From positions 1 through 64,000 of the forward strand of contig CP048472.1 of the NCBI GenBank assembly GCA_025559845.1: a DNA stretch of 64,000 nt. Reading direction: 5' to 3'. This document shows positions 4,943 through 48,079 of the stretch, one piece after another. The DNA is from Agrobacterium tumefaciens (GTDB lineage Bacteria; Pseudomonadota; Alphaproteobacteria; Rhizobiales; Rhizobiaceae). Under the pieces are notes generated by a model. That model saw only the letters and a list, made by a program, of their open reading frames with translations, did not search any database and was not told the origin of the DNA. How positions within the stretch are numbered: the stretch's first letter is position 1; every line of letters begins with the position of its first letter. Position numbers and translations under genes: made by a program.

Positions 4943-4997
4943 TTGCAGCGCCTGAGGAGTGTTGAAGGGCAGTTTTCCAAACGCAGAGGATAAGGAT

Positions 4998-5009: not shown

Positions 5010-5182
5010 GTAAACGTCTCTTGACGCATGTGCGTGGTCACTTTGGTAAAAAAATGCGCTGAAAGACAACGTTTTTGGGCGCTTCGACGTCCGCCGACGG
5101 TCCAGCTGTACAATCAGGAGCGCCGCTCCGTTCTATATATAAAGTAGGCGGAAAATCTCTCACCTGTGATTGAAGTTAACGT

Positions 5183-7831: not shown

Positions 7832-7932
7832 CGTGTCTGCGGGAACAGATCTTGTTCCGACCCCATATAAGAGCTGTCGCCGTTCGTGCTCGGTCAAAAG
7901 TTCATGTTTGCGCATCTTCACCCTGCTAACTC

Positions 7933-7993
7933 GTCCACAAAAGGGCGTGATAATCTATGGACAGCAGAGAATAAAGAGACGTATTATATGGAC
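7933..7993. promoter_or_regulatory. Possible res site / promoter region of the downstream resolvase
   Basis: Half-site-like words GTCCA (7933-7937) and TGGAC (7958-7962, 7989-7993) are spaced and oriented like resolvase subsites. They sit in an AT-rich stretch with TATTATATGG upstream of the intact resolvase gene. This is inference from spacing only. Confidence 0.35.
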
Positions 7994-8060
7994 GATTTTT
8001 CAGTGGCGGAATGAGGTCGGTTGTCACCGTCCACAGAACGGCCGTTTCGGAGACGCCATC

Positions 8061-16415: not shown

Positions 16416-16961
16416 TCAACCTCAAAATGTGTCTTTTAAGTATGATCCAGCTTCCCTCCCCATCGGCGGGCTGCTGCTGCATCATTATCTTCGCCCCGTG
16501 TAAAGCGACCGCCCAGGCCACGCGAATGATCGGCAGAGACTTTGCGCTTTAAATGATGGCCTGATCTCGCATTGTTATTTCTGCAGTCTCTTGGTCTTTG
16601 CGCTCAAGGTTCTGGGCGACCAGTGTCACAACCTCGGTCCGAGCATCGGAAGGTGCATTCGGAATTCGGTTGAGCGCGGAGTGGGACCCGACGTAGAGTC
16701 AGCGGATTTTCGGGCGCTCTTCTCCAGATCCGGCTACGAAATGATGGCATCAAAAACGTCGCCTGTGGCAATTCAAGGTCAGTCCTTCAACGCTTGAAGC
16801 GGTAAGAGCCGACACATACCTTTGCATCGCAGCACCTGGGACGCACTCCGACGGTATTCTGATGAGCGAGATCGTCTGCCGACCCGCGCGCCAGCAGGTT
16901 CTTCTTCACAGGGGATCGTGGGCGGGGTCTGAACCATGCCAACCCTCATTTCTCCTTCATT
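16416..16961. other. Gene-free stretch before the integrase remnant
   Basis: About 550 bp without a supportable gene. It lies between the divergent operator region and the RIT recombinase remnant, and is likely debris of the deleted first two recombinases. I see no readable recombinase motifs in any frame, no tRNA and no clear terminator. Confidence 0.4.
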
Positions 16962-17222
16962 CTCTGGACCCGTGAGGCCCGACTGCGGGGAGCTTCCGAG
17001 ACAGAGGGGCCAAGGATTCACGATCTTCGCCATACCTTCGCGGTGCGCACACTTCTGGACTGGTACAGGAACGTTGAGAACGTCGATCGTCGAATCCCGG
17101 AACTTTCGACATATCTCGGCCATGGAAAGGTGGCCGACACATACTGGTATCTAAGCGCACATCCCGATCTTCTGGAGCAAGCCAAACTCCGTCTCGACGC
17201 GCGATGGGAGGCGGCACAATGA
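16962..17222 (+). pseudogene. C-terminal remnant of a tyrosine recombinase (RitB-like)
   Basis: The frame ending at TGA 17220-17222 reads GPRIHDLRHTFAVRTLLDW..., then STYLGHGKVADTYWYLS. This is the HxxR box and the GHxxxxxT...Y catalytic tail of a tyrosine recombinase. The N-terminal two thirds are missing. Its stop overlaps the next start as ATGA, the coupling seen between the consecutive genes of recombinase-in-trio (RIT) elements. It is therefore best read as the second recombinase of a RIT element with its front deleted. Confidence 0.85.
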
Positions 17223-18214
17223 CCAGTTCGCTTCCACGTCTTATCGAGCGCTTCTTTACACAGCGGCTAATGCGCCAACGCAATGTCAGCACGCATACCG
17301 TCGCCTCCTACCGCGACACCTTCAAGCTCTTTTTGAGGTTCGCCCACCGCAAGACGGGCAAGCAGCCATCATCCCTGATGCTTGAAGATTTCGACGCAGA
17401 GCTCGTCATAGCATTCCTGGATGACTTCACCGCAGAAAGACGATCGGGCACCGCCACCTACAATCTCAGGCTTACCGCTATTCGAGCCTTCTTTCGGTTC
17501 CTTGCATTCGAGGAGCCTACCTTTAGCCATCAGATCCAACGCGTGCTCGCCATCCCCGGCAAGATCGGCACGAGGCGCGAGGTACAGTTCCTTGTCCGGG
17601 ATGAGATCAAGGCGCTCCTGGCAGCACCGGACAGGCGATTATGGATCGGTCGCCGCGACTGCTGCCTCCTCCTGACGGCAATACAGACGGGCATGCGGCT
17701 CTCCGAACTGGTCGGCCTCGATCGCGGCGCTGTCACCCTGGACACTGGCGCGCATATTAGATGTTTCGGAAAAGGACGGAAGGAGCGCGTCACTCCGCTC
17801 ACCAAAATTCTGAGTTCCGTGCTTAAACAATGGCTGGACGAGCCAAGATTGGGCCAGTCCGACATCCTCTTCCCGACCGTGCATGGATCTCGGATGAGTC
17901 CGGACGCGGTTCAATATCTGCTGGCGAAGCATGTGAAGCAGGCGGCACAGCAATACCCGTCATTGCGAGCCAAGCGCATTTCACCGCACGTTCTTCGTCA
18001 CAGTGCGGCGATGGAATTGCTGGATGCGGGGGTGGACAGCACTGTCATCTCACTTTGGCTTGGCCACGAATCCACACGCTCCACCCAAGCCTACCTTCAT
18101 GCGCATCTGGCGATCAAGGGGGCCGCACTTGCAAAGGTTGCCTCGCTGAGCAAGCAGCCTTTCTGTCGCTTCAAAGCTAACGATAAACTCTTGTCGTTTC
18201 TTGACAACCTTTAG
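17219..18214 (+). CDS. Tyrosine recombinase, third gene of a RIT element
   Basis: Site-specific recombinase of 331 residues starting at the ATG that overlaps the previous stop by ATGA. The N-terminal SAM-like domain (RLIERFFTQRLMRQRNVSTHTVASYRDTF) is followed by the catalytic domain: Arg in GMRLSELVGLDRG (~157), HVLRH (~257), LGHESTRSTQAYLHAH with the Tyr near 291. Length and position match RitC of recombinase-in-trio elements. The gene looks intact, but with RitA absent and RitB truncated the element is probably immobile. Confidence 0.88.
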   Translation: MTSSLPRLIERFFTQRLMRQRNVSTHTVASYRDTFKLFLRFAHRKTGKQPSSLMLEDFDAELVIAFLDDFTAERRSGTATYNLRLTAIRAFFRFLAFEEPTFSHQIQRVLAIPGKIGTRREVQFLVRDEIKALLAAPDRRLWIGRRDCCLLLTAIQTGMRLSELVGLDRGAVTLDTGAHIRCFGKGRKERVTPLTKILSSVLKQWLDEPRLGQSDILFPTVHGSRMSPDAVQYLLAKHVKQAAQQYPSLRAKRISPHVLRHSAAMELLDAGVDSTVISLWLGHESTRSTQAYLHAHLAIKGAALAKVASLSKQPFCRFKANDKLLSFLDNL

Positions 18215-36663: not shown

Positions 36664-37601
36664 TGCTTCATGATCCAAACTTTGCAGGACAGGGTGTGCC
36701 TTCTCCGATCCGGCTGCGTGCGCTTTCGCTTGGCGCCGGTGTTCAATCCACCACCATGGCGCTGATGGCAGCGCATGGTGAAATCGGACCAATGCCGGAT
36801 TGCGCGATCTTCGCCGATACCGGTTGGGAGCCAAGAGCCGTCTACGAGCATCTCGAATGGCTGACGTCGCCGAATGTCCTGCCGTTCCCGGTCCATATTG
36901 TATCGGCCGGCAATGTTCGCGACAATCTCATGGACGCCGCAGCCGGTAAACGCTGGGCTTCTATTCCGGCGTTTGCAAAGACGGTGACGCCAGCCGGAAG
37001 TATGCGCCCGGTTCTGGACGAGGACGACGACGGTGAACTCGTTGAAATCGGGTCACGCACGACATCGCGCCAGACTGTTTCCATCGGCATGATGCGCCGG
37101 GCCTGCACCACCGACTTCAAGATTGTGCCGATCCGCAGGAAGGTTCGGCAATTGTTGGGTCTCACGCGTAAACGCTCGCCTGATCATGCGGTCGCGGAAC
37201 AGTGGATCGGGATTTCGACAGACGAGGCGAGCCGGATGAAACCCTCGTTTGAGGATTGGCAGGTCAATCGGTGGCCGTTAATTGAACAGCGCATGAATAG
37301 GCAAGATTGCTTTGCCTGGCTGCGCCGACATGATTATCCGACGCCCCCGAAATCCGCCTGCATTGGATGCCCGTTCCACGATAACGGACGTTGGCGTCAC
37401 ATGCGTGATCATGATCCGGAAGCGTGGGCAGACGCGGTAGTCGTCGATCGAGCGCTGCGTTCCGGTATTCGCCGCATCCGCGGCGACGTCTATCTCCATC
37501 GCTCGTGCGTTCCTCTTGACGAAGCCGACCTGTCGACGGCGGCCGATCACGGCCAACTCGATCTCTGGCCCATCGAATGCGAAGGCATGTGTGGCGTCTA
37601 A
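36663..37601 (+). CDS. PAPS-reductase-family protein (PP-loop, Fe-S-like cysteines)
   Basis: 312 residues, start inside the ArdC stop. The PP-loop-like ALSLGAGVQSTTMALMA lies near residue 20, IFADTGWEP follows, and a later SACIGCPFHDNGRWRHMRD motif with paired cysteines near residue 232 could bind a cluster. This is the adenine nucleotide alpha-hydrolase/PAPS reductase superfamily, but such plasmid and phage members lack sulfate-assimilation neighbours. Coupling to ArdC suggests a function in DNA entry or modification, possibly sulfur or nucleotide chemistry on DNA. That is inference. Confidence 0.8.
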   Translation: MLHDPNFAGQGVPSPIRLRALSLGAGVQSTTMALMAAHGEIGPMPDCAIFADTGWEPRAVYEHLEWLTSPNVLPFPVHIVSAGNVRDNLMDAAAGKRWASIPAFAKTVTPAGSMRPVLDEDDDGELVEIGSRTTSRQTVSIGMMRRACTTDFKIVPIRRKVRQLLGLTRKRSPDHAVAEQWIGISTDEASRMKPSFEDWQVNRWPLIEQRMNRQDCFAWLRRHDYPTPPKSACIGCPFHDNGRWRHMRDHDPEAWADAVVVDRALRSGIRRIRGDVYLHRSCVPLDEADLSTAADHGQLDLWPIECEGMCGV

Positions 37602-37668
37602 GGGTAGCATATTGGCGGCTTGGCAACGGATGATCGCCCATCTTTGAGCGCAAGACGTGCCCCTACGT

Positions 37669-37712
37669 GGCCCAGTCGGCCCGAAGCTGTGAAAATGGCC
37701 AACTCGAAGAAC
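37669..37712 (+). repeat. Left 44-bp inverted repeat bracketing the cassette-like segment
   Basis: 44 bases starting GGCCCAGTCGGCCCGAAGCT and ending AACTCGAAGAAC. The reverse complement, with only two mismatches, is at 47115-47158. Together they flank 9.4 kb of genes separated by palindromic repeats. The copies may be ends of a mobile unit or two remnants of one older element. Confidence 0.85.
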
Positions 37713-37728
37713 AAAGATGGAATCTTTC

Positions 37729-37787
37729 ACATTAGGGTGGCTTCCCCGTCTACCAGTCACAATAGGGTCAGTTTGCCCCTATTGTGA
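37729..37787. repeat. CACAWTAGGG triplet with perfect hairpin
   Basis: CACATTAGGG (37729-37738) and CACAATAGGG in direct orientation, then an inverted copy: TCACAATAGGG (37757-37767) pairs perfectly with CCCTATTGTGA (37777-37787). Iterated words inside a 44-bp terminal-like repeat resemble protein-binding sites at transposon ends. Confidence 0.7.
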
Positions 37788-37852
37788 CGCGCAAGGAACG
37801 TAACACATGACCGTCACCCTGGGCTGCACTCAAAAATGATATATCGTTTCAG

Positions 37853-37967
37853 CTGTCGCAAAAATCCACGTCATTTCACGGACTTTTGCGTTCGATATTT
37901 GCGACAGGAATTGGCGAGGCTCTTCAGAGCACCACCGAGCACGCCGAAAACTCAGGATTTCCGCGAC
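37853..37967 (-). repeat. GTCGC imperfect palindrome, copy a
   Basis: Left arm GTCGCAAAAATCC (37855-37867) and right arm GGATTTCCGCGAC (37955-37967) enclose about 87 bp. An inner stem TTTGCGACAG at 37898-37907 repeats the pairing. The right arm abuts the stop codon of the LysE-like gene. First copy of a repeat family that follows genes in the 37.8-47.1 kb segment. Confidence 0.7.
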
Positions 37968-38581
37968 TATCGCGCCGCGACCACGGCCACGCCAGCGCCG
38001 ACCATGACACCGCCGGCGGCCCGGTTCACGCGGCGAACAACGATCGGCGTCCGCAGCAGCTTACGAGCGCGGCCGGCAAGGATCACATGCCCTCCGATCA
38101 CCACGGCCTCTACGGCGAGGATGACGGCCGCCAGCGCCGCAAGATGGCCGGGGGTCAGCGACGATCCGACCACGTTCGGCAGCAGCGCCACATAGAACAG
38201 CGGCATTTTCGGGTTGCCGAGATTGAGAGCTACGCCCGTCGCGAAGACCGCCAGTAGGCCGCGCCGTTCGGAAACGGGTTGCAGCTCGGGGACGACAGGC
38301 TCGGCCGTCCAGAGCTTGATACCCATCCAGACCAGATAGGCCGCGCCGGCATAACGGAGGATCGTCATGACGACGCCCATCTCGGCGGCGAGGATCGACA
38401 GGCCGAAGGCGGCGAGGGTCAGGAAAATCAGGATTCCAACGACTGTTCCGGCTCCATAGGCGATGCCCGAGGCCGCGCCATTTGAAATCGTGCGGGCGAC
38501 GATCGTCATATTGTCCGGGCCGGGACTGGCGGCGAACACGAAGAAAGCCGCTGCGAAGGCAAGTAAGGTGGAAATTTCCAT
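37967..38581 (-). CDS. LysE/RhtB-family amino acid exporter
   Basis: 204 residues from the ATG opening MEISTLLAFAAAFFVFAASPGPDNM. Six hydrophobic segments, with the family signature ASPGPDN in the first loop and a conserved GxNLGNPK motif (ALNLGNPKMPLFYVALLP). Inner-membrane efflux of amino acids or derivatives. The gene is on the minus strand with a GTCGC palindrome directly after its stop and another repeat-like stretch before its start, as for the neighbouring genes. Confidence 0.9.
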   Translation of the reverse strand: MEISTLLAFAAAFFVFAASPGPDNMTIVARTISNGAASGIAYGAGTVVGILIFLTLAAFGLSILAAEMGVVMTILRYAGAAYLVWMGIKLWTAEPVVPELQPVSERRGLLAVFATGVALNLGNPKMPLFYVALLPNVVGSSLTPGHLAALAAVILAVEAVVIGGHVILAGRARKLLRTPIVVRRVNRAAGGVMVGAGVAVVAAR

Positions 38582-38587
38582 GGAACC

Positions 38588-38677
38588 CCCGAAAGTTATC
38601 GTTGCTTTCGGGCTTTCAGAATACGCGTTTTCCTCCCATCTGGAAGGGGCCAACATAAAAAACGGGAGTTGCGCGAC
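38588..38677 (-). repeat. GTCGC-type element, copy b (diverged)
   Basis: The right arm GGGAGTTGCGCGAC (38664-38677) resembles the family, just after the phosphoesterase stop codon. The left end is only a hairpin CCCGAAAG...CTTTCGGG (38588-38612). Probably a decayed or hybrid copy. Confidence 0.5.
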
Positions 38678-38686
38678 ACCTGCCCC

Positions 38687-39427
38687 TTATGTTGCGGGCA
38701 TCCGCCCGGTGCGCAAAGAATACGCAACCGCATGACGGTCCGCTGCTTCTGCCTGACGCGCTGCAACTTCAAAATCAAACGGCACGGCGCGCAGTTCGAC
38801 GGCCCAGCCGGAAGGAAGCTTTTCAATCAACGCATATCGTGCGTGGGGCGCACCGGATTCCATGACATGGGGAACGGGTGTGTCGTCGCGGTAGGCTGGC
38901 ATCCCAACGCTTCCGGGGTTCACCATAAGAATCCCCCCGACATAAGCAACGCGCGGTATGTGGGTGTGTCCGCATAAGACGACGCGCGCGTCTCCGATGC
39001 CCGCGAGCCTTGGAAGGATGGCTTCCTCGGTATCGAGTGCGGCCCGGCCAGAAGCAACGTTTTCCAGGAGGTATTCCAAGTCGCCGCCCGCTGGACTCCC
39101 ATGGCAGGCAAAGACTTCTCCGCCCGCCAACGTCAATGTCGTGGGCAGTTTTGCAATCCAGTCAAGATGCGCGTTGGTAAGGCGCGGTCTTGCGAATGCA
39201 TCCGAGAAACCTGCGCCCCCTTCAAGCAATTGCCGCTCATGATTGCCCGCAATCGTCTCGTAGCCCAGGCTCATCAGTAAATCAGCGCACCCGGCCGGAT
39301 CAAACGGACCGGATACAAGGTCGCCTAGGTTCACGACAACATCAGGAGCAGCCTTGCGCAAATGCGCCGCGACAGCGTCGAGTGCGATCCTATTTCCATG
39401 AACATCCGATAGGACAGCTATCCGCAT
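38687..39427 (-). CDS. Metallophosphoesterase (YfcE/MJ0936-like)
   Basis: 246-residue calcineurin-like phosphoesterase. The metal-binding motifs are all visible: VLSDVHGN (Asp/His) at the start, VVNLGDLVSGP (GDxx), AGNHERQL (GNHE), VFACHGSP and CGHTHIPR (GHTH). Enzymes of this group hydrolyse phosphodiesters of uncertain natural substrate. Single-gene unit with repeat elements on each side. Confidence 0.92.
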   Translation of the reverse strand: MRIAVLSDVHGNRIALDAVAAHLRKAAPDVVVNLGDLVSGPFDPAGCADLLMSLGYETIAGNHERQLLEGGAGFSDAFARPRLTNAHLDWIAKLPTTLTLAGGEVFACHGSPAGGDLEYLLENVASGRAALDTEEAILPRLAGIGDARVVLCGHTHIPRVAYVGGILMVNPGSVGMPAYRDDTPVPHVMESGAPHARYALIEKLPSGWAVELRAVPFDFEVAARQAEAADRHAVAYSLRTGRMPAT

Positions 39428-39443
39428 AGAATCCTCGCCTAAT

Positions 39444-39518
39444 GTCGCAAAACTCCCGAGTTTTGTCCGGCATATTATCCTGACTTTCGCAACGTTCGAA
39501 AGTTAGGAATTACGCGAC
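39444..39518 (-). repeat. GTCGC imperfect palindrome, copy c
   Basis: 75 bp: left arm GTCGCAAAACTCC, right arm GGAATTACGCGAC, inner hairpin CTTTCGCAACGTTCGAAAG. The 66 bp of its right part align without gaps to copy f (45653-45718) at roughly two thirds of positions. It lies between the phosphoesterase start and the ankyrin gene stop. Confidence 0.8.
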
Positions 39519-39525
39519 AAAACAC

Positions 39526-39990
39526 CTACTCTCGATCGGTCGGGACTGGCACGCCCGCTGCGATATATATTTCTCGCATTTTGGCACTTGTGGTAGCCCA
39601 TACCACAGGCGATCTTTTGGCGTTGTTGACATGATGCGGATTGGCCCCACTTCTCAGCAGCAGCGCTACAATCTCGAATGCCGGCTCTGTCGCAATAGCC
39701 AAGCTCGCCTGCCTGCTTGCAGTCCATAGCGGTCCATTTCCGTAACGGTCTATCACGTTGACCTCTGCGCCAGCAGCAAGCAGTTTCCTGACAATGTGAG
39801 GGTGCCCATTCTGAGCGGCTACGTGTAAGGCTGTGAATCCGTCTTTATCGGCAGCAGAAACATTGTCAGTGCTGCCACGTAGTTCATTTTCTAACGAGAC
39901 AAGATTCCCCTCCGCCGCATGGTGCCAAAGCGAACTCCGACCATACTCATCAACGTTTGACCGCTTCTTTCGCCATGGCCATTGTGGCAT
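39526..39990 (-). CDS. Ankyrin-repeat protein
   Basis: 154 residues from the ATG opening MPQWPWRKKRSN, which has GGAGG five bases upstream; the in-frame start at 40023 would lie inside a repeat element. About three ankyrin repeats: SSLWHHAAEGNLVSLENELRG, DGFTALHVAAQNGHPHIVRKLLAAGAEVN, YGNGPLWTASRQASLAIATEP. A small protein-binding scaffold; such single ankyrin proteins often act as immunity or partner proteins. Function not determined. Confidence 0.88.
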   Translation of the reverse strand: MPQWPWRKKRSNVDEYGRSSLWHHAAEGNLVSLENELRGSTDNVSAADKDGFTALHVAAQNGHPHIVRKLLAAGAEVNVIDRYGNGPLWTASRQASLAIATEPAFEIVALLLRSGANPHHVNNAKRSPVVWATTSAKMREIYIAAGVPVPTDRE

Positions 39991-40007
39991 CACACCTCCA
40001 AGAGATC

Positions 40008-40059
40008 GTCGCGAAAATCCCAAAACCCATAACGTTGCACGCTCTAGGATTGATGCGAA
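40008..40059 (-). repeat. GTCGC imperfect palindrome, copy d
   Basis: Left arm GTCGCGAAAATCC (40008-40020), right arm GGATTGATGCGAA (40047-40059). It separates the ankyrin gene start from the next minus-strand gene. The right arm is diverged at its end; a further TCC-rich stretch AATCCTGAAAGAATCCTGCCAGG follows. Confidence 0.55.
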
Positions 40060-40101
40060 TCCTGAAAGAATCCTGCCAGGATTGAACTATTATCATGCCA
40101 G

Positions 40102-40380
40102 TCAGAACAAAGAGAAGATCATCATGCCGGCGAAGGCTATAAGCAGAGCGATGTAAAACGGACGAAATAGATAGAAGCGCTGCCAATTCGTGAGGCCGAG
40201 AGCGTTGATATAAACACGCTCATCAAGCTTCAGATTGTCCGCGCCGCTATCGACGGAAAAATCACCGCCGTTATTCTTATAAAATCGGTACTCCTTGATC
40301 TGCGCGACAATTTGGTGAACCGCCAGAAGAACGACCGCCACAAACGCGGCTGAAAAAAACAAGAATTCCAATAATAGCAT
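40102..40380 (-). CDS. Small two-helix membrane protein
   Basis: 92 residues. A hydrophobic N-terminus (MLLLEFLFFSAAFVAVVLLAVHQIV) and C-terminus (FYIALLIAFAGMMIFSLF) flank a soluble loop ending LGLTNWQRFYLFRPFYI. No family recognised. It sits 17 bp after the next gene's stop, so it may be co-transcribed with the Rap1a-like gene upstream. Such small membrane proteins with immunity-like neighbours are often immunity factors, but here this is only a guess. Confidence 0.65.
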   Translation of the reverse strand: MLLLEFLFFSAAFVAVVLLAVHQIVAQIKEYRFYKNNGGDFSVDSGADNLKLDERVYINALGLTNWQRFYLFRPFYIALLIAFAGMMIFSLF

Positions 40381-40397
40381 AACTCGAAAACGCCTCT

Positions 40398-40802
40398 TTA
40401 ATTCGCAGGGCAGGGATAAATAGCAGCCAGCGTCTCTATCACTAATGTCGATGCGCTCCCTTTGAGACGCTCTGGCGTGACGCTTCGAAGATGCGTGTAT
40501 ACGCGGTCTGTCAACTCATGGGGGAGAACCGATCCGGCTCCACACCACCCCGTCCCGCTGGTAGCATCAGCCACCCCAGCTATATAAGCACTACCGCGAG
40601 CGCGCGACATGATACCACCAGCCTCACCCTGCGGAGCGCCATTATCGGATATTCCTTCGAGCGCCTTGATCAACTCAGTCCCGCTGATTATCCAGTCGCG
40701 GGACTCATCGTTGCCAGATTCTGCTGATGCAACGTTGATAGCCCAACCTATCGACAGTATCGCTGCCAGAAAAGTTGCCCGGAATTGGTACGCTGCTGTC
40801 AT
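40398..40802 (-). CDS. Rap1a/Tai-like secreted immunity-type protein
   Basis: 134 residues from the ATG opening MTAAYQFRATFLA. It has a signal peptide (hydrophobic core FLAAILSIGWAINVASA) and a mature domain with GIMSRARGSAYIAGVADATSG, WCGAG and ...LAAIYPCPAN, matching the Rap1a/Tai fold of periplasmic immunity proteins for type VI amidase effectors. Two cysteines may form a disulfide. No effector gene is next to it, so it would be an orphan immunity gene. Confidence 0.75.
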   Translation of the reverse strand: MTAAYQFRATFLAAILSIGWAINVASAESGNDESRDWIISGTELIKALEGISDNGAPQGEAGGIMSRARGSAYIAGVADATSGTGWCGAGSVLPHELTDRVYTHLRSVTPERLKGSASTLVIETLAAIYPCPAN

Positions 40803-40888
40803 CTTCCGCTCCGTTGATCGCTGCACCGGCGTTGCTCGAACGCAGGCCCTTACTCGACGTGAATGACTGCACGCCCGAAAGCGCAACC

Positions 40889-41356
40889 TCATATCGTGTA
40901 TCGCTCATAGGCTTTGAGCAGGAATTGCTTGCCTTTCTCGGTCAGGTGCGACGCGTCGACGAATGCGGAAAAGGAGCCGGCCTCATCTCGCATATTGCCA
41001 AGTTGGGCGATCATCTCGTTGCTCCCGAATACGACGTGAAAACGCTCGCCAGCGGGGAGCCAGACAAAAAGCGGACTTGGTGAGAACTCCAGAATGACGT
41101 CCTCATGGAAAACTTGAAAAAGACTGTCCCATGCGCGAACCGGATCGATGCTGGTGGTTTTCTCCGGCTGCTTGCCGAACTCGGCATGAAAGATAAAGAC
41201 GGACCCTCCGGGGATTCCAGCAATCCTTGCCAGGGCAAGGAACGCGGCCCTGTCGAGAATATCAGGCAATATCTGAGCTTTAAACCCACACACCTGAAGG
41301 AATGAAGGGCGCAGAAGCCGCTTTTCATCAAGCGCGTTATCAAACAGTGTAGCCAC
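40889..41356 (-). CDS. Unknown protein in the cassette-like segment
   Basis: 155 residues, starting at GTG (MATLFDNALDEKRLL). No recognised domain; mixed alpha/beta sequence (SVFIFHAEFGKQPEKTTSIDPVRAWDSLFQVFHEDVILEFSPSPLFVWLPAGERFHVVFGSNEMIAQL) resembling small immunity-like proteins. It stands alone on the minus strand; a GTCGC repeat half lies 31 bp upstream of its start, next to the IS element. Confidence 0.6.
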   Translation of the reverse strand: MATLFDNALDEKRLLRPSFLQVCGFKAQILPDILDRAAFLALARIAGIPGGSVFIFHAEFGKQPEKTTSIDPVRAWDSLFQVFHEDVILEFSPSPLFVWLPAGERFHVVFGSNEMIAQLGNMRDEAGSFSAFVDASHLTEKGKQFLLKAYERYTI

Positions 41357-41387
41357 TATATTGCACCATACATCTTTGACAGGGCTC

Positions 41388-41442
41388 GTCGCAAAACTCC
41401 CGCAGAGCGTCTCAAAACTCTACGGATGGGTAATTACCTGTA
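41388..41442 (-). repeat. GTCGC repeat, copy e (half element near the IS)
   Basis: GTCGCAAAACTCCCG at 41388-41402 followed by GCGTCTCAAAACTC (41408-41421), an internal variant of the same word. No right arm is found before the IS1182 transposase, so this copy may have been cut by the insertion. Confidence 0.55.
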
Positions 41443-41449
41443 GCTGCTG

Positions 41450-43070
41450 GCGCGAGGCTCGATAGAATCCACGATCATTATCTCGAACCGACAGAGGTGC
41501 AGCGAGGCTGTTCCCGGGGATTTGGGGCGCTCTTTGGGTTTAAAATGGGCACATATCGCCCCCCTCATGCCAGAGCAGCGGCGATGAGGCCGGGAACGCC
41601 GATGAGAGTGATGGCTCTTCTAATATTATAGGCAAGCGCCGTCAGACTGAACTCCGCACGGACGTTTTCCAGCCGTCGCATCAAAAACGCTCCCTGGTAC
41701 ATCCACTGCTTTATCGTCCCGAACGGATGCTCGACGCTTTCGCGACGCTGGTCGAGAACCTCAGGTCGCGCCGCTAACCTTGCTGCCATGCGATCGAGCA
41801 CCGCTTCATTCTCCAGTCGCGAGACACGGCGATAGGGATTGTTTGTGCAGCGTGACTTGAGGGCACAGCCCTGGCAGGCTTCTCTGTTGCAGTAGTCGAA
41901 CTTCACGTTCTCACGTGACTTACTCTCGTAGCGTGGCGAAAGAACCTGCTCGGCCGGGCAGATATAGACATTCTTGTCCGTATCGTAGCGGAACGCCTCC
42001 TTGGTGAAGAAGCCTTCGCGTGCCGCCGGTCCCCGGATCGGTTTGGGAACATAGGCGCTGATGCCGGCCTTCTCGCGGGCTTCGATGTCCTCGATCTTGA
42101 AGTAGCCGCGATCGGCGACCGCCTCGATTTTGTCAACGCCGAGTGTCTCCATGGCAGATTCGACCGTCGTGGCCAGCAGCCCCATGTCGAGAACCTGGTT
42201 GCAGACTTCCTGCTCGGCGATCAGCTTGTGCTTCACATCCACGGCAAGCTGGATGTTGTAGCCGACGCCGACCTTCGTCATGCGCGCCATGGCGCGGGCA
42301 TCCGGATCAGTTAGCGAGATCTGATCCTCGCCAGTCTTGTCCAGTTCATCCAGCAGCGCCTTATGGCGATCGCGCTTGCCTTTGATGGCCGCGATCTTCT
42401 CGGCAAGTTTGCCATCACCGCGACCAGAGCCATTGCTATTACCCACCTTATCTTCGTCGGCGTCACTTTCATCGAGCCGCTTGATGTAATCGGCGAGCTT
42501 TTCGTCGGCCTCGTTGATAAACTTGGTCAGTGCACCCCGGGTGAAGTTACGATCCTTGTTGTTGACCGCTTTGATCCGCGTGCCATCGACCGCCAGAAGC
42601 TCTTTCCCGAACAGATCGAGCTGGCGGCATAGGACGACGAACTCCCGGAAGACCTGCCGGAATGCAGACCGGTTGATCCTGCGGAAGGCGGCGATGGTGC
42701 GAAAGTCCGGCTTCAGGTGGCGCAGAAGCCAGATCACCTCGATGTTGCGATGAGCCTCTGCCTCCAGCCTGCGGCTCGATCTCACCCGATTAAGGTAGCC
42801 GTAGATGTAAATTTTAAGCAAATCCGCCGGATCGTATCCAGGACGGCCGGTATCTTTCGCCGCTACCCGCACGAAGCCGACGGCGTTGAGATCGAGGCCA
42901 TCGACGAAGGCCTCGATGAAGCGGACCGGGTTGTCCGGCCCCACATAATCGTCAACCGCTTCCGGCAGAAGCAGCAATTGCGAGCGATCTGTTCCAGAAA
43001 GATGTGCCATGCCATACGATACCACAGCCCATTGGAGGTAGGAATCCAAGGGTCTGCCCGCGATCAAAAA
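41450..43070 (-). mobile_element. IS1182-family insertion sequence
   Basis: A single-transposase insertion sequence inferred from the IS1182-type transposase at 41565-43010. The outer ends are not fixed: I could not find convincing terminal inverted repeats or target duplications, so the limits are approximate. It interrupts a segment otherwise made of genes separated by GTCGC repeats. Confidence 0.7.
41565..43010 (-). CDS. IS1182-family transposase
   Basis: 481 residues from the ATG opening MAHLSGTDRSQLLLLPEAVDDYVGPDNPVRFIEAFVDGL; the in-frame start at 43067 is less likely. The N-terminal DUF772-type domain (YDPADLLKIYIYGYLNRVRSSRRLEAE) is followed by the DDE core: AVDGTRIKAVNNK (first Asp), AVADRGYFKIEDIEA (second Asp), VEHPFGTIKQWM (Glu region), and a Cys cluster CNREACQGCALKSRCTNNPYR. 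Full length and apparently intact. Confidence 0.95.
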   Translation of the reverse strand: MAHLSGTDRSQLLLLPEAVDDYVGPDNPVRFIEAFVDGLDLNAVGFVRVAAKDTGRPGYDPADLLKIYIYGYLNRVRSSRRLEAEAHRNIEVIWLLRHLKPDFRTIAAFRRINRSAFRQVFREFVVLCRQLDLFGKELLAVDGTRIKAVNNKDRNFTRGALTKFINEADEKLADYIKRLDESDADEDKVGNSNGSGRGDGKLAEKIAAIKGKRDRHKALLDELDKTGEDQISLTDPDARAMARMTKVGVGYNIQLAVDVKHKLIAEQEVCNQVLDMGLLATTVESAMETLGVDKIEAVADRGYFKIEDIEAREKAGISAYVPKPIRGPAAREGFFTKEAFRYDTDKNVYICPAEQVLSPRYESKSRENVKFDYCNREACQGCALKSRCTNNPYRRVSRLENEAVLDRMAARLAARPEVLDQRRESVEHPFGTIKQWMYQGAFLMRRLENVRAEFSLTALAYNIRRAITLIGVPGLIAAALA

Positions 43071-43072
43071 AG

Positions 43073-43450
43073 ATGACCTCCATGCTCAAAAGCCCCGTCA
43101 CCTGCGAAGTTCGCTACCGCGTCGATCAATGTCGAGTTTCCGAGTTCGAGGCATACGCTCAAATTTGGATCGAACTCATCGAACGCCATGGTGGAAAGCA
43201 CCACGGCTATTTCATACCCCGCGACAAGCCCGCAGAGACCGGAGTAAGCTTTCAAGGCGTCGGTAAGGAAGGAGCCGCTGACGTAGCGATCGCACTATTC
43301 ACCTTTCCAGATGAGAAAGCCTATCTGCAGTACCGTGAGCAGGTTGCGAAAGATCCGGATGGAGTGGCCGCGAACGCACGTTTCGGTGACAACCCACCGT
43401 TCATCAGCTACGAGCGCATTTTCCTGACCCCAATTCCGCGAACCGGATGA
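43073..43450 (+). CDS. NIPSNAP-family protein
   Basis: 125 residues if started at the ATG of MTSMLKSP (another ATG three codons on). It has the NIPSNAP/ferredoxin-like fold (CEVRYRVDQCRVSEFEAYAQIWIELIERHGGKHHGYFIPRD...ALFTFPDEKAYLQYREQVAKDPDGVAANAR). Function of bacterial members is poorly known. It begins right at the IS border on the plus strand and lacks a good ribosome site, so its expression or start may have been altered by the insertion. Confidence 0.8.
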   Translation: MTSMLKSPVTCEVRYRVDQCRVSEFEAYAQIWIELIERHGGKHHGYFIPRDKPAETGVSFQGVGKEGAADVAIALFTFPDEKAYLQYREQVAKDPDGVAANARFGDNPPFISYERIFLTPIPRTG

Positions 43451-43572
43451 CATCGGCATGGACAAAGGCCTTTAGGAGTTTTCGGACAGTCTGCAGAAAA
43501 ACAAGTGTAGTTTTAATCGGGGAGACTGTCCACGCTTCGCCAGTTTGGTCAAACGTGGACGAGTCCATGTGT

Positions 43573-43873
43573 TCAGACTGTTGGGATGGTGCCGCCGTCA
43601 ACGACGAACTCGGAGCCATATGGATGGCGGCGGTACGATCTGAGGCCAGATAGGCGATAAGGTCGGCAACCTCGCCAGGCTCGGCCCCGCGTCCGATCGG
43701 GATTCCGCCGATCCAACCCATGACCGCTTGCCGTGTTCCTCGTACGTGCCGCCATTGGCAGCCTGCATATTCTTCACCAGCACGACGGCGCACTCGGTCA
43801 TGATCCAGCCGTGGCAGACGATGTTGACGGATCCGGAGTGGTGCAGCACTGCATTTAAATCGGCGATCAACAA
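43573..43873 (-). pseudogene. Degraded short-chain dehydrogenase remnant
   Basis: C-terminal pieces of an SDR enzyme in different frames on the minus strand: PIGRGAEPGEVADLIAYLASDRTAAI in one frame and GSEFVVDGGTIPTV in another. An earlier piece, NIVCHGWIMTECAVVL, lies upstream. Rossmann and catalytic regions are gone. It lies between the NIPSNAP gene and an unknown gene, in a stretch rearranged near the IS. Confidence 0.8.
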
Positions 43874-43965
43874 ACGCTCATTTTGAGGGCAATGGATTTC
43901 AACTTTATTCTGTGTGATGGTCTGCCGAAATCTTCTCAGTTCCGATTTAGCCGTGTTTCAATTTG

Positions 43966-44499
43966 ATGCCCGAGAACAACAATCAAGTCCGCCTGGAAAG
44001 CTGCCTTCAGGTACTCGTAGGGCTGCCATTGAGCATTGCCCGCGACGTCGCGGGCATGAAGGTTTTCCATTTTGGAAAGGTCGTATCGCATCCTTCAGGC
44101 AGAGGCACTGTTGGTTCGTACGCACTACATGTTCAATGCCCTTGGCGTATCGTTGACGAGAAGACGGTAATCACAGGGACATCAGATCGTTTTCTTGAGC
44201 CGGCAGAAGGAACAGAGGTGAACGATGACGACCATAAATCGGGAAACCTGCAGCTCATCAAAATTGCATATCTGCTGAAGGGCTACGACGCGGAGACAAA
44301 TTCCTTCGTAAACGCGACCGACCAACTCGTGGTCATAACTGTCAATACAGACAACTATGGCGGGGCTGACCTGTCGCTATCAGGTGGTTACCGCCTGCAG
44401 ATTTTCCCCGACGGTTCACTTGGTGAGGACTGGCGCTTTGTTGAGATTCAGGGCCGTCATGTCGTTATCGAAGGCGGTCAAATACAGTTTGACGAATAG
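43966..44499 (+). CDS. Unknown protein
   Basis: 177 residues, ATG opening MPENNNQVRLESCLQVLVGLPLSIARDVAGMKVFHFG. No family recognised. Beta-rich with an extended C-terminal part (GGYRLQIFPDGSLGEDWRFVEIQGRHVVIEGGQIQFDE). The residue pattern resembles small cytosolic immunity-like proteins found near polymorphic toxins. Stands alone on the plus strand; its stop is followed by a C11 run at 44544-44554. Confidence 0.6.
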   Translation: MPENNNQVRLESCLQVLVGLPLSIARDVAGMKVFHFGKVVSHPSGRGTVGSYALHVQCPWRIVDEKTVITGTSDRFLEPAEGTEVNDDDHKSGNLQLIKIAYLLKGYDAETNSFVNATDQLVVITVNTDNYGGADLSLSGGYRLQIFPDGSLGEDWRFVEIQGRHVVIEGGQIQFDE

Positions 44500-44543
44500 C
44501 AATCTTATCACAACGACTTCCCGCCAGCGTTTCAACGGTGTCG

Positions 44544-44554
44544 CCCCCCCCCCC
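44544..44554. repeat. Homopolymer of eleven C
   Basis: GTCG is followed by eleven consecutive C residues between two convergent genes. It is the longest mononucleotide run I noticed in this GC-rich window and could vary in length, either truly or by sequencing error. Confidence 0.8.
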
Positions 44555-44572
44555 TACGGCCATTGGCTCGCG

Positions 44573-45487
44573 TTACCACTCCCGCCATTCTGCGGTGATA
44601 TCTTCATCATCCGGGAGGCTGAAGCCTGACGCCCTTACCACCGCGTCGATCAGGACGCCAAGTTCGTCGCGTTCCAGTGTTTCGATCATCCCGCTTCTGG
44701 CGTTGATCTCATTGATCGCAAGAACGATGTCCTTGACCGCCGTCTGGATGGCCTGTGCATCCCGCTCGCTGGTTGCGGCCTTCACCCTGTCGAGGAACGC
44801 ATTCAGCGCCGTTTCAGCCGTTGCAATATCGGTTTCGTTGAACAGCTCGTCTCCCTCGGCCATGGACGCGCGCCAACGTTGCGTTGGAATATGGGCCCGC
44901 AACGCTTCGACTTTATCGATGTTGTCGGGCACGATCTTCTGCTTGGGCAAGGACGCCTTCCGGCGCTTGGCCTTGAGCATGGTGCGGTCAGCATGCATCA
45001 GATAGACCGCCATCAGCCGCAAGTTCGCATCATATTTTACGATCACGACCATATTGCCAACAGCATGGGCGTGATCGAAGCGTTCGGCTGAATATTCCGG
45101 CAGCGAGCTGCTCTTTCCCTCCCGAAACGGACCCGCCCCGAGTTTCTCGGCCACGACGTCGCTGCTGTCTCCAAACGTCAGACCGAATGGCAGCGCCGAC
45201 ATATAGGACCGTTGCACGGCTCTGATGGCATCCAGCCCGGTAAAGGACAGCCGAGAGACGATCCTCTCCTCGTCGTCCGGCAAGTGCCGTGACCGTACCT
45301 CTTCGAATTCGGCACTATATGCGGAAAGGCTTTCCACCTGCAGGCCGAAGCCGCTATCGAAACCGCCGAAAAACCCAATCTCCGCATTTGTGCGGAAATC
45401 GATAGGGTCCAGCTTTTCGTGATCCGCCAGGTACGACCCGACAATCGGGTCGGCGATGCTGCGGCCAAGTATATCGGAATGATTCAT
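44573..45487 (-). CDS. Unknown protein
   Basis: 304 residues, ATG with AAGGCAGAG upstream. No domain recognised; an N-terminal globular part (ADHEKLDPIDFRTNAEIGFFGGFDSGFGLQVESLSAYSAEFEEVRS, then TFGDSSDVVAEKLGAGP) reminiscent of lipoprotein-less immunity proteins that contain 'FGDSxDxVxxKLG', and a C-terminal helical part after residue 185. It lies before repeat copy f, as an isolated gene on the minus strand. Confidence 0.65.
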   Translation of the reverse strand: MNHSDILGRSIADPIVGSYLADHEKLDPIDFRTNAEIGFFGGFDSGFGLQVESLSAYSAEFEEVRSRHLPDDEERIVSRLSFTGLDAIRAVQRSYMSALPFGLTFGDSSDVVAEKLGAGPFREGKSSSLPEYSAERFDHAHAVGNMVVIVKYDANLRLMAVYLMHADRTMLKAKRRKASLPKQKIVPDNIDKVEALRAHIPTQRWRASMAEGDELFNETDIATAETALNAFLDRVKAATSERDAQAIQTAVKDIVLAINEINARSGMIETLERDELGVLIDAVVRASGFSLPDDEDITAEWREW

Positions 45488-45601
45488 CTCTGCCTTTCCT
45501 TCACTGCATCCCTATCCGATATTGCCTTGCAATCTTTGTGACGTCGAATGAGTTTTATCTGTGCGCTCACAAAGCAGCGAGTTGCCGGAAATCTCCTAGC
45601 A

Positions 45602-45718
45602 GACCGTCCCAAAACCCTCCGTGAGATTCCTGATGAGAGTTTTGAGACGGTTTGCCCGAGTTTTGCTCGATATGTTAGCCGGACTTTTGCAGCGCTGCAA
45701 AATTAGGATTTCTGCGAC
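45602..45718 (-). repeat. GTCGC imperfect palindrome, copy f
   Basis: Left arm GTCCCAAAACCCTCC (45606-45620), right arm GGATTTCTGCGAC (45706-45718), inner perfect hairpin TTTTGCAGCGCTGCAAAA (45685-45702). The right arm contains the stop codon of the NUDIX gene. Its last 66 bp align gap-free with copy c. Confidence 0.8.
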
Positions 45719-46179
45719 ATCTCGTGGATGAGCAGGTGCTGAACGGGTTCCCGCTGAACAAACTCGGCCTCTACGTGCTTTAGAACATGGCGTTGCCCTG
45801 CAAACGGCACCATCGTCAAAGCCGCCGCAAATGAGACCCACCGAAACTCGCTATGCTCGTGATTGATCGTAACCGCCGCCTCGGCATCTACAAAGCCGAC
45901 GAATACGGGAAACATGCTGATGGCGTCACGATCAGCCTCATAGAACTGCTCGCATATGTCCGCTGAATAAAGGCGGTTGCAGCCTAAGCCCGTTTCCTCT
46001 TTCACCTCACGCAGAGCTGTTTCCCACGCCTTCTCGCCGTCTTCAATGCCTCCGGCAATTTGACACCACTCGCCAACGAGGGTGTGATTCCGGCGTAGCA
46101 ACAAGACTTCGGTTTCGGGTTTGGCGTTGCGGAGAAGAACAACGGATACGCCAAAGCTACGGATTGGGATTTCTGCCAT
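45703..46179 (-). CDS. NUDIX hydrolase (dATP pyrophosphohydrolase-like)
   Basis: 158 residues with a canonical NUDIX box (about residues 43-65) beginning GGIEDGEKAWETALREV and ending KEETGL, all catalytic residues present. The flanking sequence (EVLLLRRNHTLVGEWCQIAGG) is typical of NudB/MutT-like enzymes that hydrolyse dihydroneopterin triphosphate or nucleotides. The last codons MSQKS lie inside the right arm of repeat copy f, showing that the gene and its repeat form one unit. Confidence 0.92.
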   Translation of the reverse strand: MAEIPIRSFGVSVVLLRNAKPETEVLLLRRNHTLVGEWCQIAGGIEDGEKAWETALREVKEETGLGCNRLYSADICEQFYEADRDAISMFPVFVGFVDAEAAVTINHEHSEFRWVSFAAALTMVPFAGQRHVLKHVEAEFVQREPVQHLLIHEMSQKS

Positions 46180-46211
46180 GGTAGTCGATCCAGCTTACAA
46201 AATGAGGTGCA

Positions 46212-46237
46212 GTCGCAAAATTTCCGAAACCTGCGAC
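46212..46237 (-). repeat. GTCGC palindrome, copy g (short)
   Basis: GTCGCAAAATTTCC to CTGCGAC, only 26 bp, between the NUDIX start and the hydrolase stop. A shortened version of the repeat family with both arms. Confidence 0.55.
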
Positions 46238-46239
46238 AC

Positions 46240-46995
46240 TTATCGCAACAAATGCGATGACAAGAAATTTGCCGCGCTCTGGTGCGCTGCGCCGGCGTTC
46301 CGAGTTCCCGATCTCAAGAAAAAGTCGTGCGTGCCGCCCTCATAAACGTCAAGGGTAACAGGTCCGCCAAGCTGCTGCGCAGTCCGTTGCAGCTCCCGGC
46401 CAGTCGACAAGGGAAAAGTCCGGTCGGCGCTGCCCCAAATCAAATGCAGAGGCGGCAACGAGCGGACAGGCTGCGAATAGCCATTCGGGAAACCACCATC
46501 GACCAGCACCAGGGCGTCAATATCGGCTCGCCCGACCGAAGCGGCCGAAGCGATTTGCGCGCCAAGGGAGATTCCGAGAACGCCGACCTTGCCGCCGTGG
46601 CGCGGCTGCCCCTCAAGATGGGCGGCCACACCTTGAACGGCGGAAATCCAGTCCGGCAATCGCTGCGCATAATAGGCGATGCGCGCCCGCGCGCTGCCCG
46701 CCTTAGCGATGGCGTCGCGGTCGGCCGCCGACAGAACGTGCACGAGATAGGCATTCAAGCCCGCCGCCCGGAGCGACTGGCCGATCTCGTCATAAACGGG
46801 CGCTACAAAGCCCTTGCTGCCGCTCAAGATCACCACAGCCGGGCAGGTTGCGTTCGCGCAGCTCCCGAAGCTCTCGACCAGAACCCCGCCGCTGTCGGTC
46901 GCCATGGTGAACCGTTGTCGAGACGATTGAGCATTGGCTCCTGCTGGAAGAAAGGAAATGGCTAGGGTCGCGATAATGATATTGAATAGACGCAT
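46240..46995 (-). CDS. Exported dienelactone-hydrolase-family esterase
   Basis: 251 residues with a signal peptide (NIIIATLAISFLPAGANA, cleavage likely near residue 22). Alpha/beta hydrolase: nucleophile Ser143 in GISLGAQIAS, acidic residue in IWGSADRTF, His in EGGTHDFFLR. Likely a periplasmic esterase; substrate unknown. Last gene of the cassette-like segment on the minus strand, preceded by repeat copy h and then the right 44-bp inverted repeat. Confidence 0.88.
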   Translation of the reverse strand: MRLFNIIIATLAISFLPAGANAQSSRQRFTMATDSGGVLVESFGSCANATCPAVVILSGSKGFVAPVYDEIGQSLRAAGLNAYLVHVLSAADRDAIAKAGSARARIAYYAQRLPDWISAVQGVAAHLEGQPRHGGKVGVLGISLGAQIASAASVGRADIDALVLVDGGFPNGYSQPVRSLPPLHLIWGSADRTFPLSTGRELQRTAQQLGGPVTLDVYEGGTHDFFLRSGTRNAGAAHQSAANFLSSHLLR

Positions 46996-47016
46996 GAACC
47001 TGTCTTGTGTGCTTCC

Positions 47017-47051
47017 GTCGCAAAATTCCCGATTTAAATTTGAGTTCTGCG
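47017..47051 (-). repeat. GTCGC palindrome, copy h
   Basis: GTCGCAAAATTCCC (47017-47030) and GAGTTCTGCGAG on the right. It lies 22 bp upstream of the hydrolase start, in the same orientation as the other copies. A following AGTTTCGCAAC extends the symmetry. Confidence 0.55.
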
Positions 47052-47114
47052 AGAGAGTTTCGCAACAGCCTATTTTTCACCGGCACCTGGCGTAGAAACT
47101 AAGAATTACACCTC

Positions 47115-47158
47115 GTTCTTCGAGTTGGCAATTTTCACAGCTTCGGACCGACTGGGCC
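47115..47158 (-). repeat. Right 44-bp inverted repeat bracketing the cassette-like segment
   Basis: Reverse complement of 37669-37712 with two mismatches. It closes the 9.5-kb segment. The flanking bases outside the two copies do not match as a target duplication (TACGT on the left, TATGC on the right). Confidence 0.85.
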
Positions 47159-47492
47159 TATGCGGATTTCCGTTGTGAAAGACGGCTACTCAGCCAGTTC
47201 CTGAAGCCCGGGAACGTCTTCCGTGCCGGCCAGCCGGTGCGGTGTGGGCGCTGAGGGCTGGGGGGATCGCATCCTAACCACGGTCCTTGCCGGCAGAATG
47301 AGGCACCATCCTGTCGACGATGGGCTCGGTTGTCGAACAGTCGGTAGGGCAGACCCACCTATCGGCGAAGGAGTCGAACGGAACGGCAGGACCGCAGCCG
47401 TGACGTGGCGTGAGCTTGGTGCGGATAGCGATCGTGCCTGCAGCGCGCTGGTGTGAATTCACCGAATGGTCTCTCGGCATGTCGTGCACAAT

Positions 47493-47748
47493 CCGGTTCG
47501 GGCTGGCCACACCCATCGCGTCCTCGATGGATCTGGTGTGACCGAAGGACGCCTTCGTCTCGACCGACTTGGCCGCAACGGCCATACGCGACTTTCTTCC
47601 CCTACGAACAGGTTCGCATTCCTCGCGCGACAAGAAAGCCGCTCCCGGCCGCCCTCCACTGACGTTTCGGCCCAAGGGTGCGGCGTCGATCGCCGTCGGT
47701 CTTAACACCGTCATCGAGGACGCGATGGGCGCGGCCCGAGCAAACCGG
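47493..47748 (+). repeat. Structured leader of the DUF736 gene
   Basis: CCCATCGCGTCCTCGATG at 47512-47529 is an exact reverse complement of 47712-47729; CCGGTT (47493-47498) further pairs with AACCGG (47743-47748). The arms enclose about 180 nt and end 13 bp before the ATG at 47762, the same plan as the leader at 34551-34801. Confidence 0.75.
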
Positions 47749-47761
47749 AAAGGTTACGACA

Positions 47762-48079
47762 ATGGCAGTCATCGGCGAATTCACCACCAACGGCAACAAC
47801 TCCATCATAGGCAACGTGCGCACACTCACCGTCAGCATGAAGGCCCGCCTGAACCCGATCGAACGCGTCTCGCGCGACGCTCCGGATTTCCGCATCACCG
47901 CCGGCAACGGCGTCGAGGTCGGCGCCGGCTGGAAGGCGGTCTCCAACGACGGCGAGGAATACATCTCGGTCAAGCTGGACGACCCGAGCTTCAACGCACC
48001 GATCACCGCAGCCCTTTGGCCAAGCGATAAGGACGGCGAATACGCCCTCATCTGGAACCGCCCGAAGCGGGAGGCCTGA
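47762..48079 (+). CDS. DUF736 protein
   Basis: 105 residues, matching DUF736, a small conserved family of alphaproteobacterial plasmids and symbiosis islands. Typical pattern: MAVIGEFTTNGNNSIIGNVRTLTVSMKARLNPIER ... SRDAPDFRITAGNGVEVGAGWKA ... GEEYISVKLDDPSFNAPITAALW. Probably a small beta-rich single-stranded-nucleic-acid or protein-binding fold; role unproven. Preceded by a structured leader and followed by a terminator. Confidence 0.92.
   Translation: MAVIGEFTTNGNNSIIGNVRTLTVSMKARLNPIERVSRDAPDFRITAGNGVEVGAGWKAVSNDGEEYISVKLDDPSFNAPITAALWPSDKDGEYALIWNRPKREA

Follow-up and report, generated by a model that had tools for sequence, protein, structure and literature searches.

An array of single genes on a Ti plasmid

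The window analysed here, by which we mean the whole stretch of 64,000 nucleotides, is Agrobacterium tumefaciens DNA (contig CP048472.1, positions 1 to 64,000; contig 4 within its own genome). Between positions 37,853 and 47,051 it holds an array of single genes placed between fixed backbone genes, uniform in orientation and bounded by dyads of 28 bp. The left border is formed by an ArdC-family gene and its neighbour, the right border by one hypothetical gene and one DUF736 gene. The region 37600–48000 is matched at up to 100% identity by Agrobacterium tumour-inducing (Ti) plasmids, which we take to be of the nopaline type; several of them are 177,577 bp long and match at identical coordinates. 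We interpret the region as probably a directional cassette array formed at the res-type site of a small serine recombinase, inside the remains of a Tn3-family transposon. The sites (a to h) and the genes between them are listed below; L-numbers (L001, L033, L044 and so on) denote comparison loci fetched for the analysis.

37855–37968, minus strand: site a, 113 bp, three dyad-like subsites; the same plan lies upstream of four type-1 resolvases
37967–38581, minus strand: cassette gene, LysE family translocator (annotation)
38651–38678, minus strand: site b, right half only, core centre CC; profile score 14.6, left arm not seen
38687–39427, minus strand: cassette gene, metallophosphoesterase (annotation)
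39443–39519, minus strand: site c, full 75-bp inter-cassette site; found by profile and set against the hybrid junctions in L033 and L034
39526–40023, minus strand: cassette gene, ankyrin-repeat protein (open reading frame; annotated as an ankyrin repeat protein in L034)
40007–40059, minus strand: site d, degenerate; core 40007–40034 (TCCCAA), profile score 15.7
40102–41356, minus strand: cassette block of hypothetical, Rap1a/Tai-like and hypothetical genes, together in other contexts too
41388–41421, minus strand: site e, a left arm joined by an arm of a second type (GCGTCTCAAAACTC); missed by the profile
45655–45719, minus strand: site f, 75-bp site without the left arm; 3′ core 45692–45719, 69.1 bits with the whole-site model (R1), profile score 35.5
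45703–46179, minus strand: cassette gene, NUDIX; stop codon formed within the core of site f
46211–46238, minus strand: site g, minimal 28-bp core between two genes (profile)
46240–46995, minus strand: cassette gene, dienelactone hydrolase family (annotation)
47016–47066, minus strand: site h, the other boundary; core 47016–47043 (CC/GG) and accessory arms 47041–47066 (record comparison)

Site a consists of subsites at 37855–37881 and about 37880–37905 and a crossover core at 37941–37968 with centre CT, and site c of a 5′ core (39443–39470, centre CC/GG) and a 3′ core (39492–39519, centre CT/AG). In site f, another repeat stands in place of the left arm. The sites described in the initial annotation are real, but they differ in completeness: b is a right half only (core 38651–38678), d and e are partial, the left arm of f is replaced, a has 113 bp and another architecture, and g is a minimal 28 bp. 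The uniform orientation that it described for all copies was borne out, as was the stop codon of the NUDIX gene within the arm (45703–45705).

Architecture of the sites

The dyad of 28 bp is composed of an R arm (TGTCGCRRAAA), a 6-bp spacer and an L arm. A full inter-cassette site, read on the minus strand, measures 75–76 bp and comprises TGTCGCRRAAATCCTRA and an L arm, about 20 bp, and an L arm followed by TCGGGANTTTTGCGAC, so that each half is a 28-bp dyad. Fourteen copies of 75–76 nt (from the window, L036, L044, L045 and L046) and the cut copy f were aligned over 76 columns. For copies c and f the alignment runs ungapped through 65 columns, much as the initial annotation had it, and the arm ends of the 15 copies are of the GTCGC type, in agreement with its statement that the GTTRRRY/RYYYAAC boxes are lacking.

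The shared arms that it reported are also real. Exact matches to its left arm occur in the window at 37855, 39444, 41388 and 47017, all inside the array, and exact matches to its right arm at 37955 and 45706. The arm 13-mers alone, with up to 3 mismatches, are only mildly enriched (left, 81 against 65.8 expected; right, 75 against 55.0). A profile built on the R-first 28-bp half, and partly trained on the window copies themselves, finds 10 places of score ≥12 in 37601–47400 and none in the rest of the window; 200 Markov simulations of the array region average 0.25 places and never exceed 3. One of its matches (38417–38444), inside the LysE gene, is probably due to chance. At score 14, the profile has no match across 685 kb of shuffled locus sequence. 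No Rfam family matches in 37000–48000, and the six terminator-like sites (9.7 in shuffles) do not overlap the array sites; transcription terminators, which the initial annotation had named as a possible refutation, were rejected on this count.

Another arm type (GCAGACCGTCTCAAAACTC and its complement) is present at array boundaries: in the window at 41388–41421, 43475–43495 and 45600–45660, thus at sites e and f, and in L034 at 11063–11117. It seems to form hybrids with the main sites, and it is possibly a second site family or the end of an element.

Exchange of cassettes between strains

Related Ti plasmids carry different genes between the same borders. L033 and L035 have the LysE and phosphoesterase cassettes but nothing of the stretch between c and h. 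These two cassettes are absent from L034, L206 and L207/L208, which have a different gene at h. The genes present in L046 are NUDIX, a hypothetical gene, a DMT transporter and a regulator, and the NUDIX gene adjoins site a. The flanks are 99.2–99.8% identical to the window in L033, L034, L035 and L206 and 98.6–99.2% in L046; the left flank of L208 is 98.6% and the right flank of L207 90.7% identical. Because exchange occurs among nearly identical Ti backbones, the comparison argues for an array that was active recently.

The switch points support swapping of gene blocks within the spacer of the sites. To the left of the site a core, the sequence is constant up to ...CTCAGGA in 11 of 11 records, and the arm thereafter follows the neighbouring gene (LysE in 7, ankyrin in 3 and NUDIX in 1). 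At site h, CGATTTAAATTTGAG is constant in 10 of 10 records, and the arm to its left varies with the cassette (dienelactone hydrolase in 4, phosphoesterase in 2, a hypothetical gene in 3 and a regulator in 1). Of 58 plasmid records that match 46990–47160, 55 retain at least 80% of it, and the matches of these 55 start at query base 1, 27 or 28. When the site of L034 is set against its assumed parents, window sites a and c, the bases shared at the switch are AGGA; for the site of L033, with c and h as assumed parents, they are TCGGGA. Both stretches include the dyad centre, as expected for a Tn3-type site I, in a comparison of sequences only. The gene swapping at the copies that was to be looked for is found, in AGGA at site a and in TCGGGA at site h. 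Of 40 distinct match ends from 16 loci, 11 are no more than 20 bp from a core centre, a zone that makes up 4.3% of the array (binomial 7e-7, with ends that are not independent).

The ends of individual blocks were located as well. The LysE cassette is also found in A. vitis, where the match ends at 37964–37967 and 38649–38652; a large serine recombinase (L041, 9059–11164) adjoins a LysE cassette in A. vitis. Matches to the block 40102–41356 end in d and e (L037), at 40087 (L038) and at 40098 (L039), the last two outside d. At site e, match ends fall at 41402–41420 in six loci (L034, L206, L207, L036, L037 and L038).

These junctions bear on another explanation, in which 75-bp miniature transposons were inserted between genes and homologous recombination later took place among the copies. 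The repeats are conserved, occur across Rhizobiaceae and are often solitary, as such elements would be. However, the assumed parents share merely 4–6 contiguous bases at the switch of the hybrid junctions, the window array has one orientation and stop codons lie at the centre, and we regard this explanation as very improbable. A unit of the type of the Tn3-derived inverted-repeat miniature elements (TIMEs) or other miniature inverted-repeat transposable elements was rejected, as the 75-bp unit has short arms instead of Tn3-type ends of about 38 bp, and the 44-bp repeats described below flank the whole array.

Core classes and the position of stop codons

Position 15 varies across 146 distinct cores (T, 75; C, 58; G, 13), and positions 12–14 and 17 are 86–92% one base. 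Of 20 CT-centred cores, 19 stand at the 3′ end of a gene. Positions 15–17 hold a stop codon in 66 of 69 CT cores, and 24 of these 66 stops terminate an open frame of at least 90 codons. Counted by frame (0, 1 and 2), open frames of at least 90 codons that reach cores number 26, 0 and 5 for CT, and 3, 7 and 2 for CC. The stop codon and last bases of many cassette genes thus lie in the core, and the stop is supplied by the CT partner, with TGA or TAA in nearly all partners seen.

Serine resolvases and a probable Tn3-family setting

In the comparison loci, small serine resolvases directly adjoin sites, as is the case for 17 of 56 distinct resolvases. In the tree built from these 56, clade 2 (L111 type) has a core at most 350 bp upstream of the resolvase in 11 of its 14 rows, and the type-1 clade (type of L044 37248) in 4 of 10. 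The site label is clustered on this tree (6 changes against 14.9 when shuffled, with 0 of 500 as low), whose rows were partly found via the sites. Among loci found by protein search only, clade 2 resolvases of at least 67% identity have an adjoining site in 9 of 11. The resolvases at 37248 and 39800 of L044 contain PF00239 and PF02796 (catalytic domain and helix-turn-helix). The solved structures closest to the linked resolvases are those of gamma-delta/Tn3 resolvases and DNA invertases, and residues Y6, R8 and S10 are present in L044 37248, the one resolvase checked.

Linkage also appears at the level of genomes. Where a genome has a close type-1 resolvase, R1 sites are present in 8 of 8, and in the remaining genomes in 41 of 191 (P = 9e-6); for a close type-2 resolvase the counts are 6 of 11 and 43 of 188 (P = 0.03), out of 199 genomes in each case, with cut-offs set after seeing the lists and kinship not controlled. 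In 6 of the 8 type-1 genomes the sites lie on contigs other than that of the resolvase. In the genome of the window, contig 3 encodes a type-1 resolvase that is 91% identical, with cores 0.7 and 2 kb away, and since this enzyme is available, action of a resolvase in trans is possible.

The plan of site a, with its 113 bp and three subsites, is also found upstream of type-1 resolvases in L044, L098, L125 and L173, and the homology extends through the ATTAGGGTGG region towards the start codon. The features surrounding the array are as follows.

37669–37712, no strand assigned: left 44-bp inverted repeat, resembling a Tn3-family end and flanking the whole array; 95% complementary to 47115–47158
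37713–37854, minus strand: upstream region of a type-1 resolvase, preserved as a remnant; aligned to the upstream regions of L044 37248, L173, L125, L162 and L098
47115–47158, no strand assigned: right 44-bp inverted repeat, beyond site h; partner of 37669–37712

The remnant spans the ATTAGGGTGG motif up to the start-codon region, and the resolvase gene itself is absent: in the Ti plasmid, homology to the type-1 upstream region ends near the start-codon region, and the 44-bp inverted repeat comes next. Repeats similar to the left one precede a DUF4158 (Tn3-type) gene fragment in L209 and a Tn3-family transposase in L210, and another follows just after an intact type-1 resolvase in L162, a locus without a site of its own. 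The array thus appears, by these similarities, to be seated in a Tn3-family remnant from which the transposase and the resolvase were lost. The Tn3 origin that the initial annotation had considered applies in another sense, as the 44-bp inverted repeats around the array border Tn3-family transposase genes elsewhere, but the 75-bp repeats look like resolvase sites and not like miniature transposons. The recombinase gene that it proposed to look for at arrays elsewhere is found in the form of serine resolvases beside part of the sites elsewhere, but not beside the window array. In pTi_Tun180 (L205, 8525–11628), an extra block of plasmid genes, from ArdC-like to DUF736, is apparently inserted within the array.

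A proposed recombination scheme

The scheme that we propose builds on what can be read in the sequences: the sites, modular exchange with switch windows of 4–6 bp, the centre classes, the stop pattern and a partial linkage to resolvases. A cassette would comprise one gene or a few genes ending in R arms, and exchange would take place at the centre of the 28-bp dyads, in which a 6-bp spacer separates an R arm from an R or L arm. The cores form two classes according to their central dinucleotide, CT at the 3′ ends of genes and CC in part at the other end; if CT and CC cores recombine only within their own class, the orientation of the cassettes would be kept, and the CT class would restore a stop codon after every exchange. 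Site a would be the site next to which the resolvase gene, absent from this plasmid today, once stood, and site h would be the other boundary. Cutting would be performed by the linked resolvases, here in trans, with circular cassettes as presumed intermediates. By its parts, the system would be a variant of the Tn3-type resolvase/res system, with res-like sites recurring from one single gene to the next.

Several observations weigh against this reading. Of the 40 match ends, 29 lie away from profile cores and include IS1182 ends, site e ends and ends within genes or blocks. CC-centred cores stand at the 3′ end in 12 of 26 cases (at the 5′ end in 14 of 26), and 12 more cores have other centres; that none of 54 CC cores has a stop at 15–17 is no control, as position 15 is C by definition. 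The centre class is not bound to a resolvase clade, since clade-2 loci L132, L138, L141 and L178 have CT cores upstream. Part of the rows of the resolvase tree came to light via the sites. Type-1 resolvases of at least 68% identity in loci found by protein search only have an adjoining site in 2 of 8 (one of the loci has about 100 bp upstream). No resolvase adjoins the window array; the two serine recombinases of the window, near 4.9 and 8.1 kb, stand far off in the tree and have no adjoining site. A resolvase directly adjoins the site in only 4 of the 18 genome loci with the exact subsite II pattern (L171, L173, L178 and L179), all 18 of which we take to be alphaproteobacterial, judging from titles. 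The other 14 comprise site a itself (L168), two sites similar to it (L175 and L180) and 11 loci with a related 113-bp architecture and no adjoining resolvase; L169 has one about 2 kb off.

Alternatively, the sites may be ordinary res sites of plasmid or transposon resolution systems, shuffled incidentally and without a dedicated cassette function. Recombination driven by a resolvase between the res sites of different elements is described in an excerpt of PMC9501444 (CinH-RS2), and portable resolvase modules in one of PMC4133298 (TIME-RES); single related sites also stand by traA–DUF6118 on the small plasmids L201 and L204, and about 2 kb away on L203. However, plasmid pRvVAT039d carries a longer array (about 19–37 kb) with eleven sites in one orientation, and this, the repeated 75-bp sites, the two centre classes and the central stops exceed what incidental shuffling would give. 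We therefore consider it the less likely explanation, albeit the most serious competitor to a directional cassette array at a serine-recombinase site.

A broader claim, which we put forward tentatively and think somewhat less probable than its negation, is that the array represents a serine-recombinase counterpart of the integron. It would be a dedicated cassette platform of Alphaproteobacteria, with two boundary sites, two core classes that fix orientation and a 3′ core that encodes the stop, so that gene ends stay intact in each exchange. It would carry single genes between Ti, accessory and small mobilizable plasmids, and related sites would extend to some gammaproteobacterial plasmids. If so, cassette capture would have evolved more than once, by way of a second and unrelated enzyme family, and the differing gene content of nopaline-type Ti plasmids at one fixed place would be explained. 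The site signature would offer a means to search for cassettes on alphaproteobacterial plasmids, and the placing of a stop codon at the crossover point amounts to a simple design rule that can be tested.

Relation to integrons and other systems

Gene cassette arrays are generally ascribed to integrons with a tyrosine integrase. Integrons use IntI, attI and attC, and attC sites carry GTTRRRY/RYYYAAC boxes. The array resembles them in its single accessory genes of one orientation, in the imperfect palindromes at 3′ ends and in the boundary sites at its ends. It differs in the serine resolvases beside sites, in GTCGC-type arms instead of GTTRRRY, in switch points at both cassette ends, in the absence of covariation backing a conserved hairpin and in the direction of the genes at site a, which point towards the place of the recombinase. 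It would work like an integron, on the evidence of the sequences, but is without the defining tyrosine integrase and attC boxes, and a conserved hairpin is unsupported. The cassette idea of the initial annotation is thus upheld as to the exchange of gene blocks with switches inside sites, but not as to membership of the integrons, given serine resolvases, no consistent tyrosine integrase and no covariation.

A relative of integrons, in which a tyrosine integrase acts on attC-like folded sites (R''-L''-L'-R'), has in its favour a site plan and array logic like those of attC arrays. Pairing at the named positions is seen in 78.5% of cells, compared with 29–49% when slid; against shuffles, in which 80.0% are paired, R''-R' covariation is not above expectation, for 15 sequences only, and RNAalifold predicts 4 pairs in the sites. 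One array (L001) has a trio with a tyrosine recombinase inserted in it, and pTi-SAKURA has such a trio upstream of a second array, but the trio occurs in only 6 of 199 family genomes (E ≤1e-60), three of the five trio loci scanned have no core of score ≥14 and the other two have one core about 6–8 kb off. The recombinases that do adjoin sites are of the serine type, no tyrosine integrase gene is annotated around the array, and three tyrosine recombinase queries match the window at 16866–18211 only. We judge this explanation improbable. As an integron integrase, the array-side tyrosine recombinases (the three-gene module of L001 and pTi-SAKURA and the three-recombinase set of L046) were rejected, being sporadic.

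The three-gene modules (L001, 5126–9212; L045, 15159–20696) encode a tyrosine recombinase and two large proteins without Pfam or NCBIfam matches. In L001 the module is inserted in the ankyrin gene, with a flank of about 150 bp duplicated, and in pTi-SAKURA (L045) it lies upstream of the second array. Open reading frames at 16866–18211 of the window resemble the tyrosine recombinases of the three-recombinase element of L046.

With Tn3 resolvase/res systems, the array shares a resolvase of the gamma-delta type, a three-subsite site of about 113 bp upstream of the gene in some loci, the switch at the dyad centre and the Tn3-type inverted repeats around the array; it differs in that res-like sites are repeated between single-gene cassettes, with two centre classes and a stop rebuilt by the core. 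Kholodii is said to have described module shuffling driven by a resolvase in 2001. The pdif modules of Acinetobacter are bounded by XerC/XerD-type 28-bp dyads of 11-6-11; these, too, are gene modules swapped between plasmids, whereas the array has a different sequence, a linked serine recombinase and accessory subsites. Such arrays are not described in the titles and abstract openings of the literature matches listed, which cover open-licence text only and are weak evidence of absence.

TIMEs, in an excerpt of PMC4133298, are Tn3-derived inverted repeats without a transposase, and TIME-RES elements add a resolvase and res. The 44-bp repeats around the array are likewise of Tn3 type and without a transposase, but TIMEs are, by the same excerpt, transposition units, whereas the unit exchanged here is a cassette between resolvase-type cores. 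RinQ of Rhizobium etli, a gamma-delta family recombinase on a rhizobial plasmid and likened by description, is linked to plasmid incompatibility, and a cassette role is not mentioned in the excerpt of PMC10194956.

Distribution of the sites

The R1 model has matches in 49 of 199 family genomes (E ≤0.01), and the site consensus in 71 plasmid records (Agrobacterium 57, Rhizobium 13 and Neorhizobium 1). The related 113-bp architecture is found in 96 plasmid records, including those of Citrobacter, Enterobacter, Pseudomonas and Pantoea. In L199 and L200, on Citrobacter and Pseudomonas plasmids, such sites lie beside an MFS transporter and a TetR-type regulator. On small alphaproteobacterial plasmids, the architecture adjoins DUF6118 next to traA in L201 and L204 and is about 2 kb away in L203; it is perhaps the multimer resolution site of these plasmids.

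Two further serine recombinases are encoded in the window, at 4004–5113 (minus strand) and 7743–8627 (plus strand), neither with an adjoining site. The plasmid pTi-SAKURA (L045, 21369–38295) has a second cassette block in the opposite orientation, at a place where the plasmid of the window has none.

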